Source: Pelagicoccus sp. SDUM812003 (GTDB lineage Bacteria > Verrucomicrobiota > Verrucomicrobiia > Opitutales > Opitutaceae). From it: a stretch of DNA of 64,000 nt. The notes under the pieces are model-generated. The model did not search any database. It saw only the letters and a program-made list of their open reading frames with translations, and had not been told where the DNA came from. The position numbers and the translations under genes are program-made. The stretch is taken from the NCBI RefSeq assembly GCF_031127815.1, contig NZ_JARXHY010000005.1, positions 62,001 to 126,000 on the forward strand, written 5' to 3'. Below, in pieces: positions 28,434 through 32,726 of the stretch (the stretch's first letter is position 1; each line of letters begins with the position of its first letter).

Positions 28434-28820
28434 ATGGACCGCGTCTACCGGATCGGATTCTATCTTCTGCTTGCGGTGTGCCTTGGCTTGGGGTTTGCCC
28501 TCATGCAACAGCAGCATGAGCGTCCGCTCTCGATCAGCGACGCGACGATCGAGGAGAGTTTCGAGTACTTCGGCGTGAAGCAATCGGACGAAACCATCGT
28601 CAGGCGACCCGAGCTCGTGCCGAGAGACGATCCGAATCGATCGATCCCCTTCTTTCAGATCTTCGAGAGACGGAAATACGACGGCTGCAGCAATACCTCC
28701 CAAAGCCAGTACTCGAGAACTGATTTCCTTCAGAAACGCTATCCGGTCATCGCCACCCTCCTCACCGAGGAGGACCTGCTCAACCTCGAAGAAACGCCCA
28801 AGGAGGCTGACGCGCGCTAG
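28434..28820 (+). CDS. Membrane-anchored small protein of unknown function
   Basis: 128 residues. An N-terminal membrane anchor or uncleaved signal (IGFYLLLAVCLGLGFAL, residues ~7-23) is followed by about 105 hydrophilic residues with no recognised domain. The mature part is rich in Glu, Arg and Asp and contains the single Cys of KYDGCSNT. The start ATG lies after a G-poor stretch with no strong ribosome site, and the start of the ligase follows 27 bases after its stop, so the two may be co-transcribed. Confidence 0.6.
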   Translation: MDRVYRIGFYLLLAVCLGLGFALMQQQHERPLSISDATIEESFEYFGVKQSDETIVRRPELVPRDDPNRSIPFFQIFERRKYDGCSNTSQSQYSRTDFLQKRYPVIATLLTEEDLLNLEETPKEADAR

Positions 28821-28847
28821 AGCGCGGCGCCATTGCCAGAAAACGTC

Positions 28848-31544
28848 ATGACCTGGAAACTCGAGCAACAGAACGGAATCTACCTGCCAGACCTCGACTG
28901 GCATCTCGACGCTCGCAAGCCGGTCGCTCGCTCCTTCGTCTCCCACGCCCATTTCGACCACATGGGCGATCACGAAACCATTCTTTGCAGCGCCCCTACC
29001 GCCCAGTTGATCCGCGACCGTCTGCCAGGCGAGCGCCAGTGGCAAGTCCACGCGTTCGGCGAAGCCTTCGAATTCGCTCCCGGCGTCACCGGTACCCTCC
29101 ACCCGGCGGGGCACATCATCGGCTCGGCAATGCTGCGCCTGGAACGCGACGGCCAATCCTTGCTCTATTCGGGCGACTTCAAGCTCACCGCTGGCATCTC
29201 CGCCGAAGCGTGCCAGCCCGTCGCTGCCGACACGTTGATCGTGGAGACTACCTACGGCGTGCCGCGCTACACCTTTCCTCCGGAAAGCGAGGTCATCGCC
29301 GACATCATTCGCTTCGCCCGCGAATCCATCGAAAACGGGGAGACGCCGGTGCTGTTCGGCTACAGTTTGGGCAAAAGCCAGGAGATCCTGCGGGCCCTCG
29401 CCGATAGCGACCTCCAGGCCATGCTGCATCCGCAGAGCTACAAGCTCACCGAAAGCTGCGCCACCCTCGGCTGGGAGTTTCCCGATTTCCAGCCCTTCGA
29501 CCCATCCGACCATGAAGGCAAGGTGCTCATCTGCCCGCCGATGGCTCGCAACGCCTCATGGCTGAAAAAGGTGCGCAAACCGAAAACCGCCATCATTTCC
29601 GGCTGGGCCATCGATCCCTCCGCAGTCTACCGCTACCAATGCGACAAGGCCTTTCCGCTCTCCGACCACGCCGACTACCTCGATCTGCAAAGCTTCGTCG
29701 CCCAGGTCGCCCCAAAAACCGTCTTCACCGTGCACGGGTTCGCCCAAGAGTTCGCCGCCACGTTGCGCGAACAAGGCTACGAAGCCTGGGCCTTGGGAAA
29801 GGAAAACCAGCTCAGCCTCGACATCCCCGAAGAAAAGCCCGACCTCAGCGACGCCTTTCCCAACAGCGACCCGCTGGATCCCGATTCCCTACCGCTGGAC
29901 AGCTTCGCCAGACTCGCCGCCACCGCCGCCACGCTCGGAGAAACCGACAGCAAGAACAGGAAGGTGGAAATCCTCAGCGGCTACCTTTCGAAACTGGATG
30001 TCGACTCCGCCGCCTTGGCCTCGCTTTTCCTCACCGGACGCCCCTTTCCCCAAGCTTCCAGCCAACGCCTCAACATCGGCTGGTCCCTGGTGCGACAATC
30101 CATCCTGCTCGCGAGCGGCTCCAGCGAAGCCGACTTCAAAACGCTCTACGACAGCCTAAGAGACAGCTCCGAGGTCGCGGCTCGCCTGCTCGCCAAACTC
30201 CAGGTCAAGCCCACCCGCACGCTGACCCAGATCGCCTCCTTCTTCGACGGGCTCGCCGCCGCCCCCAGCCCGGCCTTTCGCCAGTCCCTGCTCAGCGAGG
30301 AGTTTCGCAAACTGACCCCGGAAGAAGGCAAGCTGCTCATGAAGATCATCAGCGGCGACCTGCGCATCGGACTGAAGGAGGGCCTAGTGGAAGAAGCTCT
30401 TGCAGCCACCTACGGGCTCGACAAGGAGGAGCTCCGCAAGGCCAACCTGCGCAGCGGCAACCTGCTGACCGTGGCGCGACACGCAGCCCGCGACGCCCTG
30501 CAGGAGATTCGCCTCACGCCCTTCCACCCGCTGCAGTTCATGCTGGCCAGCCCGGAGGCCAACGCGGAGGCGATCGTGGCTCGACTGGGCGACGCGGTCT
30601 GGACCGAGGATAAATACGACGGCATCCGATGCCAGATCCACAAGGTCGGCGAGCGGGCGGAGCTCTACAGCCGCGATCTTAATCGCATCACCCACCAGTT
30701 TCCCGAGCTCGCCGAAGCGGCCCGCCAGATCCCGCAGGACTTCATCGCGGACGGCGAGGTGGTCGCTTGGGGCTACGAGCGGCCGCTGCCGTTTTCCGAG
30801 CTTCAAAAACGCCTCGGACGCAAGGGCGAAGACCTATTCCTCGGGGAGGAAATTCCGGTGATTCTCTGGCTTTACGACCTGCTTTGGTTCGAAAACGAGG
30901 ACTTGCTCGACGCGCCCTTGGAAAACCGCCGCAGGAAGCTGGACACCTTTTCCGTGAACCCCAAAGCCCGCATCGCTCCAGTCAGCATCCTGTCATCGCC
31001 CCAGGACATCGAAGCTGAATTCGCAGCCGCCCGAGCCCGCGGAAACGAAGGACTGATGCTCAAGGACCCTTCCAGCGCCTACCTTCCCGGCAGACGCGGC
31101 CTCTCCTGGCTGAAGCTGAAGAAGGCCTACGCCACCATCGATGTCGTGGTGGTGGCGGCGGAATACGGCCACGGCAAGCGCAAGGACGTGCTGTCAGACT
31201 ACACCTTCGCGGTACGTGACGAGTCCGACGGCTCGCTGAAAACCATCGGCAAGGCCTACACCGGTCTCACCAACGCCCAGATCGACTCCCTCACCGAACG
31301 CTTTCTGGCCAACACCATCGAAGACGAGGGACGCCTCAAACGCGTGGTCCCGGACACCGTGCTGGAAATCGCCTTCGACAGCATTCGCGAAAGCAAGCGG
31401 CACGATTCCGGCCTCGCCCTGCGCTTCCCTCGCATCAAACGCATCCGGACCGACAAAACCGTCGAACAAATCGACACCCTCGCTCAATGTCGCCGCCTGC
31501 TGGAAGCCGGGCAGCAAGCCGACGCAGTCCATCGCCCCGAATAA
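28848..31544 (+). CDS. Fused metallo-beta-lactamase-fold nuclease and ATP-dependent DNA ligase
   Basis: 898 residues from the ATG at 28848 (a TTG at 28833 is possible). Residues 1-~325 are a metallo-beta-lactamase/beta-CASP-like nuclease of the 'ligase-associated exonuclease' type: HAHFDH (H33, H35, D37, H38), HPAGHIIGSAM (H85, H89), SGDF (D110), SDHADY (H274) and VHG (H296). An acidic, Pro-rich linker (~325-350) leads to an ATP-dependent DNA ligase: helical DNA-binding domain (~350-560), adenylation domain with the nucleophile K589 in EDKYDGIR, DGEVVAW, EGLMLKD and WLKLKK, then an OB fold to the end. In most bacteria nuclease and ligase are separate neighbouring genes, together with an Lhr-type helicase and the phosphoesterase PdeM; neither partner is in this window. 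A role in double-strand or oxidative DNA repair is inferred. Confidence 0.93.
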   Translation: MTWKLEQQNGIYLPDLDWHLDARKPVARSFVSHAHFDHMGDHETILCSAPTAQLIRDRLPGERQWQVHAFGEAFEFAPGVTGTLHPAGHIIGSAMLRLERDGQSLLYSGDFKLTAGISAEACQPVAADTLIVETTYGVPRYTFPPESEVIADIIRFARESIENGETPVLFGYSLGKSQEILRALADSDLQAMLHPQSYKLTESCATLGWEFPDFQPFDPSDHEGKVLICPPMARNASWLKKVRKPKTAIISGWAIDPSAVYRYQCDKAFPLSDHADYLDLQSFVAQVAPKTVFTVHGFAQEFAATLREQGYEAWALGKENQLSLDIPEEKPDLSDAFPNSDPLDPDSLPLDSFARLAATAATLGETDSKNRKVEILSGYLSKLDVDSAALASLFLTGRPFPQASSQRLNIGWSLVRQSILLASGSSEADFKTLYDSLRDSSEVAARLLAKLQVKPTRTLTQIASFFDGLAAAPSPAFRQSLLSEEFRKLTPEEGKLLMKIISGDLRIGLKEGLVEEALAATYGLDKEELRKANLRSGNLLTVARHAARDALQEIRLTPFHPLQFMLASPEANAEAIVARLGDAVWTEDKYDGIRCQIHKVGERAELYSRDLNRITHQFPELAEAARQIPQDFIADGEVVAWGYERPLPFSELQKRLGRKGEDLFLGEEIPVILWLYDLLWFENEDLLDAPLENRRRKLDTFSVNPKARIAPVSILSSPQDIEAEFAAARARGNEGLMLKDPSSAYLPGRRGLSWLKLKKAYATIDVVVVAAEYGHGKRKDVLSDYTFAVRDESDGSLKTIGKAYTGLTNAQIDSLTERFLANTIEDEGRLKRVVPDTVLEIAFDSIRESKRHDSGLALRFPRIKRIRTDKTVEQIDTLAQCRRLLEAGQQADAVHRPE

Positions 31545-31597: not shown

Positions 31598-31823
31598 AAC
31601 AAAATCTGCAGGTCGCCGCGCCGAGACGGCAAACTCCAGCGTTCCAAATCAGCAATTTCCCTGAGTACTCTTCCCCCTAAACGCATTCAAACTCGGTCAT
31701 CGCAGCGTGCCGAAACGGTAAAACTTCGCGCAAAGCTCCTATCTAAAGCCTCTGGGGAACTCTTACCCGTTGCGCTCATCCTAATTGTCTCCTAGCTCTG
31801 AACCAAATTTCCCTTTATCGAAC

Positions 31824-32726
31824 ATGACTTCAACGATCCCAGACAGACGACTTTTCGCCCGCTGGACCATCGCAGCGCTCCTGCTCCTCGGATGCGCGTC
31901 CGCTAGCGCCGGCATCAATGGCGACGAGTTCGACGAATCAACCGAGCCCGACGTGCCGGACGAGATCGAGTGGCCGGAAGCCCGTTTCGCCGATCCCATG
32001 GAACGCGGACGGGCCTTCCAGCCAGGAAACGAGTTTCTCTTCCGAGCCCAATGGGGCATCTTTCGCAAAGCGGGCTCCATCGCGATCACCGTGGAAAGCG
32101 CCAGCCACTCCGACCAGGAAGAGGAAAGCCTGCAGGTGATCATGGAAACCGCTTCCGCCGGCGTCATCCGCTCCTTCTATCCTATGGATCTGGAATCGAG
32201 AACCAGCCTCGATCCACGCGAGTTTCGCGTCGTGCGCGACGAAGTCGACGGGATCGTGCGATCCAAAGAGAGCCGCACCGTCGCCCTCTTCGACTACGAC
32301 GAAGGAAAGGTCGTCTACACCGACGAGCTCGAACCGGAACGCAACAAGATCAAAAAGCTGCCCTACGACGTCACCCTCGACTACGCCAGCTGCATCCTCC
32401 AGCTGCGCAGCTGGGATCTGGCCGTCGGCTCCCGCTATCAAATGTGCGTCAACTCCAAGGGCAAATTCTACTTCGTAGAGCTGGAAGCAGTGGAAAAGGA
32501 CCGCATCCGCACCGAATTCGGGGCCCGCGACTGCTTTCGCATCGAACCAGTGCGGGTCTTCCCCCAGAGCAAGACCTTCCGCGAAGGCGGCAAAATGGCG
32601 ATCTGGATCACCGACGACGCGGAGCGCATCCCCGTGCGCGTGGACGTGAAAACCAGCTTCGGCACCGCCCGCATGCTGCTCGAGGAGTACCAGCTGGCAG
32701 ATACCCAAGAGCTTGCAAAGAAGTGA
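31824..32726 (+). CDS. DUF3108 exported protein
   Basis: 300 residues from the ATG at 31824 (MTSTIPDRR). A signal peptide (TIAALLLLGCASASA) precedes an acidic stretch and then the DUF3108 beta-rich domain, recognisable from the FRAQWGIFRKAGSIAI strand and a second-half block GGKMAIWITDDAERIPVRV. LLLGC is a weak lipobox (C at about residue 24), so it may be a lipoprotein, although the following ASASAG also fits ordinary cleavage. The family is periplasmic and often found near cell envelope genes; no function is established. The 279-bp gap before it holds the ligase terminator and otherwise nothing recognisable. Confidence 0.8.
   Translation: MTSTIPDRRLFARWTIAALLLLGCASASAGINGDEFDESTEPDVPDEIEWPEARFADPMERGRAFQPGNEFLFRAQWGIFRKAGSIAITVESASHSDQEEESLQVIMETASAGVIRSFYPMDLESRTSLDPREFRVVRDEVDGIVRSKESRTVALFDYDEGKVVYTDELEPERNKIKKLPYDVTLDYASCILQLRSWDLAVGSRYQMCVNSKGKFYFVELEAVEKDRIRTEFGARDCFRIEPVRVFPQSKTFREGGKMAIWITDDAERIPVRVDVKTSFGTARMLLEEYQLADTQELAKK

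Follow-up and report, generated by a model that had tools for sequence, protein, structure and literature searches.

Proteins in which a metallo-nuclease precedes a DNA ligase in a single chain have been described before. The available part of PMC10140301 (2023) reports 13 fusions from the Antarctic Dry Valleys, in which an RMMBL nuclease is followed by DNA_ligase_A_N, A_M and A_C, and cites Ejaz and Shuman 2018 for a fusion in Opitutus terrae. According to the same part of that article, the ligase half of one Dry Valley member seals nicks with ATP, neither the full-length fusion nor its nuclease domain could be obtained in soluble form for assay, and it is not known what roles the bacterial LigB pathway and the nuclease associated with it have. 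The separate-gene counterpart is the ligase-associated four-gene set, made up of the families Exo (TIGR04122), LigB (TIGR04120), Lhr-Core (TIGR04121) and PdeM/MPE (TIGR04123).

We analysed a 64,000-nt stretch of DNA from Pelagicoccus sp. SDUM812003 (hereafter, the window), which contains a fused nuclease-ligase gene at positions 28848..31544 of the + strand. Because such fusions have already been published (PMC10140301), the window protein adds a member to a published kind.

Architecture and active sites of the fused protein

The gene consists of an open frame of 898 codons plus stop, and an upstream TTG at 28833 would lengthen it to 903 codons; both the frame and its Pfam architecture confirm the single-chain fusion of the original prediction. 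Residues 1-325 (28848..29822, +) make up a beta-CASP metallo-beta-lactamase nuclease half, recognised by Lactamase_B_2 (residues 29-136), RMMBL (269-314), profile matches and, below its cut-off of 325, TIGR04122 (228.3 bits). An interdomain linker follows (residues 326-351; 29823..29900, +), which is a gap between Pfam/NCBIfam matches with no domain match of its own. The ligase half comprises an N-terminal DNA-binding domain (DNA_ligase_A_N, PF04675, residues 352-519; 29901..30404, +; 82.4 bits), a nucleotidyltransferase domain (DNA_ligase_A_M, PF01068, 565-758; 30540..31121, +; 145.1 bits) and an OB fold (DNA_ligase_A_C, PF04679, 779-870; 31182..31457, +; 47.3 bits), all above the respective cut-offs, as found for LigB-type ligases. 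The structural model of the window protein (mean pLDDT 61.8, pTM 0.30, with pLDDT under 50 in the linker region 310-350) was too weak to be used for its domain arrangement.

The same uninterrupted frame is present in relatives at 51-72% identity within the family and 44-49% outside it. A sequencing or assembly error joining two genes is thus ruled out, since relatives at 44-72% identity carry the same continuous frame, and 13 Dry Valley sequences have been published; we assign such an error a negligible probability, in agreement with the original prediction of a natural fusion.

Residue conservation was examined in 54 distinct full-length relatives, the window protein included, to which the counts of "live rows" out of 54 refer. 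The window protein contains all beta-CASP motifs: motif 2 (H33-x-H35-x-D37-H38; 28944..28961), the motif 3 metal ligand H89 (29112..29114), D110 of motif 4 (29175..29177), E133 of motif A (29244..29246), H274 of motif B (29667..29669) and H296 of motif C (29733..29735), the last aligning with the HG of aCPSF1, all on the + strand. Each of these nine residues occurred in 54/54 live rows, and H89, E133 and H296 were also invariant in a 12-row alignment that included split nucleases. The metal site had been predicted to consist of H33/H35/D37/H38, H85, D110 and H274, of which only H85 did not stand: its column is variable (H 24, L 17, Y 9 and F 4 among the 54 rows) and the conserved ligand is H89, so H85 was rejected. 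E133 and H296 had been overlooked.

The ligase half was likewise complete, as anticipated, from the adenylation lysine to the OB fold. Motifs I, III, IIIa, IV, V and VI are all intact, with K589 (30612..30614, +) located in motif I (KYDGIR) within EDKYDGIR, and K589, D591, G592, R594, R609, E637, E734, K739, W754 and K756 were each found in 54/54 distinct live rows. Because both active sites are complete, the window protein is predicted both to cut and to seal: as judged from its residues, its most likely activities are the cutting or trimming of nucleic acid where there is a break or nick, and also nick sealing.

Distribution, partner genes and likely substrate

A survey of 387 genomes of the phylum, with up to two candidates scored per genome, located fused genes both in the family of the window and in further families of the same class, and split neighbours elsewhere, along with nuclease-only genes. 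Within the family, 252 genomes were sorted by best E-value. By score, 59 contained a fused-type ligase sequence; in 56 of these a single frame covers the nuclease together with some or all of the ligase, and in the other three (G478, G479 and G600) the ligase part stands alone at the start of a contig. A further 13 genomes carry fusions with a pseudo-ligase (see below). Another 133 genomes had scores in the range of a lone nuclease part, an upper bound, as some may hold fused genes cut by contig ends (match positions were listed for 81, and 20 loci were checked). The remainder had nothing or only distant metallo-beta-lactamases (36), fragments (8), a split set (1), a broken locus (1) or a live-type gene cut off ahead of the OB fold (1). 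In one genome, G523, a live fused gene occurs together with a paralogue that consists of the nuclease alone (L146 and L147).

The assembly of the window's genome (88 contigs, 97.5% complete) yielded a single PF01068 match, and neither a second ATP ligase, nor Ku (PF02735), nor PdeM was found in it. Lhr-Core was not found in this genome either; its highest-scoring Lhr match (456.4 bits; cut-off 850) was a 1457-aa Lhr located away from the fusion (L109, G000:C4, 1920-6293). Of the two partners that the original prediction had suggested looking for elsewhere in the genome, pdeM had no match and the best lhr match was this long form.

Partners were also sought in 80 genomes, 32 of which have a live fused gene, with thresholds of our own (PdeM, more than 80 bits; Lhr, at least 330 bits in a frame not of the long Lhr type). 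Relatives of both PdeM and Lhr-Core were present in 23 of the 32; 12 of these 23 genomes pass the curated cut-offs of both families and 11 pass neither. The other nine live-fused genomes had neither partner, the window's genome and G339 having the long Lhr. Neither PdeM above 80 bits nor a match to the LigB N-domain occurred in any of 33 nuclease-alone genomes, and the one helicase match noted among them, in G271, was partial (249 bits). No ligase remnants were detected in the 33 nuclease-alone loci at E up to 1, barring a chance-level match at L053 (E = 0.017). In G215, of family f10, the fused gene (L108, 3151-5007) ends after the ligase DNA-binding domain, and this genome retains Lhr-Core and PdeM despite the truncation.

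The nature of the substrate can be approached from both halves. The valine at motif C, a mark of the DNA-specific SNM1/Artemis enzymes in the available parts of PMC7458816 and PMC3095777, is absent from the window protein, which has H296; PMC3095777 interprets a His at motif C as pointing to RNA substrates and a Val to DNA. The strongest profile matches of the nuclease half were RNA-cutting CPSF-type proteins, aCPSF1/FttA and CPSF73. Both observations run against a role in DNA repair, and RNA is a possible substrate in view of the motif C His. They would fit an RNA-directed protein whose beta-CASP half acts in RNA processing, for instance where damage blocks transcription or at RNA-DNA junctions, and whose ligase half serves only as an anchor on DNA. 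We consider this improbable, because the DNA nucleases Apollo (11-287) and SNM1A (23-287) also match the nuclease profile over most of its length, the single-sequence search had SNM1A as its top nuclease match (29-199), and relatives of Lhr-Core and PdeM accompany the fusion in most live-fused genomes. In addition, the available part of PMC7458816 reports that a Val-to-His change in SNM1A altered neither activity nor selectivity. We infer that the substrate is DNA because the nuclease is paired with a ligase and because many fused genes are accompanied by relatives of the helicase and the phosphoesterase; DNA repair is pointed to by the 23/32 live-fused genomes that have both relatives.

Origin of the fusion and inactivation of the ligase half

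We compared phylogenies of the two halves. The nuclease tree contained 84 rows (32 fused, 33 alone, 15 split, 3 dead-ligase and 1 truncated), leaving out L001, L010 and L020 (window copies), L004 (broken frames) and L041 (contig end); the same five, L009 and pieces under 330 residues were left out of the ligase tree (53 rows). In the nuclease tree, the 15 split rows formed one clade (100/100) apart from the fused and nuclease-alone rows, and the nuclease-alone rows nested among the fused ones, with at least four changes forced by the starred branches. The 32 live and three dead fused ligase halves formed one clade (97/91), which adjoins four Chloroflexota ligases (chance finds of a pattern scan) and is separate from 14 split Verrucomicrobiota ligases. 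Moreover, both halves of the split pair of G310 pass their NCBIfam cut-offs (nuclease, TIGR04122, 447.5 bits; ligase, TIGR04120, 594.6 bits), and the window halves fall below them (TIGR04122 as given above; TIGR04120, 332.7 bits against 400). A simple joining of the phylum's canonical neighbour genes, which the original prediction had assumed, was thus rejected by both trees and by the cut-offs.

On account of the two trees, the sequences support a single old fusion in this class, followed by losses of the ligase. We consider it likely that the window protein is a bifunctional product of that one event, in which the beta-CASP metallo-nuclease comes first and the LigB-type ATP-dependent DNA ligase second. 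In families f2, f5 and f18, whose deep lines are nuclease-only, the nuclease tree fits either a loss of the ligase or never having had one.

Neighbouring genes were called with a codon-scored gene picker. Within the window's family they agree with the trees: of 20 nuclease-alone loci, 19 had an AI-2E transporter homologue no more than 0.9 kb away, on the same strand, and 18 had a DUF3108 gene within 0.6 kb downstream, also on the same strand; neither was found at the 13 nuclease-alone loci of other families. DUF3108 is likewise no more than 0.25 kb downstream of the fused gene in the window (31785..32726, +) and at L021, L022 and L025, and comes after the pseudo-ligase gene at L002, L039 and L042. 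At L089 and L090 it lies 3.3-3.4 kb downstream, past lhr and pdeM, and the sequence of several other fused loci is too short to reveal it. On the other side of the fusion, a 128-aa frame without Pfam match (28434-28820) separates it from a DoxX gene, which in several relatives is directly beside the fused gene.

The 13 pseudo-ligase fusions (L133-L143, L039 and L042) are homologous to positions 28848-31121 of the window. Measured from stop to stop, their open frames span 758-905 aa, and they end before the OB fold. Six belong to genomes of the window's own genus, out of eight, and seven to another genus. All nine nuclease residues were retained in 13/13. Conversely, none has the adenylation lysine, position 589 being occupied by E (6), L (6) or R (1). 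The OB fold and the glutamates of motifs IIIa and IV, E637 and E734, are missing from all 13, K756 from 11 and R609 from 10; G592, R594 and K739 remain in 13/13, and D591 and W754 in 12/13. In the three pseudo-ligases scanned with Pfam, DNA_ligase_A_N and A_M were matched, and A_C was not. The model of the Pelagicoccus mobilis pseudo-ligase, whose input alignment included live relatives, matched 3rr5 with Z 37.6 and rmsd 2.9 over 402 residues, and both of its remaining ligase domains (DNA-binding and nucleotidyltransferase) match archaeal ligases. All 50 rows of the VIA-align search with this model fell within residues 341-755 and none was a nuclease structure, so that it was uninformative on the nuclease half.

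We also examined the selection acting on these sequences, with pN/pS figures that are rough because most pairs come close to saturation at synonymous positions. With this limit, values for the nucleotidyltransferase domain were 0.11-0.47 among pseudo-ligases (8 pairs) and 0.16-0.36 among live proteins (4 pairs), and those for the DNA-binding part were looser, 0.19-0.63 and 0.16-0.51, respectively; between live and dead proteins, the ligase part gave equally rough values of 0.58-0.65, against 0.29-0.33 for the nuclease. Inactivation may have occurred once or twice: placing the pseudo-ligases in one clade was rejected by the nuclease tree (p-AU 0.007) and supported by the ligase tree (99/98), where their grouping could reflect shared fast evolution. 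Together, these results show that the ligase half was lost or inactivated repeatedly while the nuclease half was kept.

Among 12 further genomes with a pseudo-ligase (11 intact and 1 broken), PdeM and Lhr-Core were found only in G549, and a long Lhr (frame of 1435-1475 aa) in nine. G549, of the window's own genus, has a separate and complete canonical cassette besides its pseudo-ligase fusion (L151, G549:C73, 3386-8467 and beyond), with Lhr-Core, PdeM and a separate LigB that retains the lysine motif. The broken locus type is seen at L144/L004 (G558), a pseudo-ligase-kind locus whose frames are broken in both the nuclease and the ligase parts. We found no description of a pseudo-ligase fused to a nuclease in the open-access literature searched.

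Function and comparison with known systems

The original prediction saw in the fusion a minimal machine, in which the nuclease trims the end that the ligase then seals, so that both activities act in sequence on one break and are coupled by being in one chain. Both active sites are indeed intact in the window protein and in 54/54 full-length live rows, a fused-type ligase sequence persists in 59 of the 252 family genomes by score, and the idea of a minimal machine stands insofar as the window's genome showed no PdeM, Lhr-Core, Ku or other ATP ligase. Obligate coupling did not hold among the relatives: up to 133 family genomes, again by score, have only the nuclease part, and 13 ligase halves, six of them in the window's genus (n = 8), lack the adenylation lysine and the OB fold. 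We therefore regard an obligate trim-then-seal mechanism as unlikely.

In the simplest account, which we consider likely, the nuclease would be the core activity, working with or without a ligase; the ligase half would grip nicked or broken DNA through its DNA-binding domain and nucleotidyltransferase clamp, and would also seal in some lineages, the window protein probably among them, within a DNA repair pathway. A bolder interpretation, slightly more likely than not, is that in this lineage the ligase half is changing into a clamp that holds the nuclease on DNA and no longer seals, with the window protein as the live ancestral form. The pseudo-ligases keep the nucleotidyltransferase fold under purifying selection, as judged from the rough pN/pS values above. 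If the clamp interpretation is correct, the pseudo-ligase and nuclease-only genes arose from the live form at the same locus, and the first role of the ligase half was to bring the nuclease to nicks or ends. Since one chain is found with its ligase live, dead or missing in close relatives, these genes amount to a natural test of the purpose of each half, for which we predict a core function for the nuclease and a ligase fold that can persist as a DNA-gripping part without ligation.

Functionally, the fusion resembles the pair formed by Artemis/SNM1C, a beta-CASP nuclease, and DNA ligase IV, with which it is complexed (3w1b was among the structure matches). That pair belongs to eukaryotic, Ku-dependent end joining. 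The likeness is one of function only: Artemis and ligase IV are separate proteins and the window's pair is one chain, no Ku was found in the window's genome, and motif C is Val in Artemis, according to the available part of PMC7458816, and His in the window protein. The four-gene set combines the same two enzyme folds, and relatives of its Lhr-Core and PdeM occur in the 23 live-fused genomes described above, but the fused halves differ from those of the set in scoring below both curated cut-offs and in forming separate clades. The closest counterparts are the published metallonuclease-LigB fusions, which share with the window protein the domain order and a complete LigB ligase in one chain. 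Among them, O. terrae has the Lhr/phosphodiesterase configuration, according to the available part of PMC10140301, whereas neither PdeM nor Lhr-Core was found in the window's genome. The nuclease-only and pseudo-ligase relatives shown here have no mention in that part of the article. The window protein is thus an intact member of a published kind, and its pseudo-ligase relatives are the newer part.
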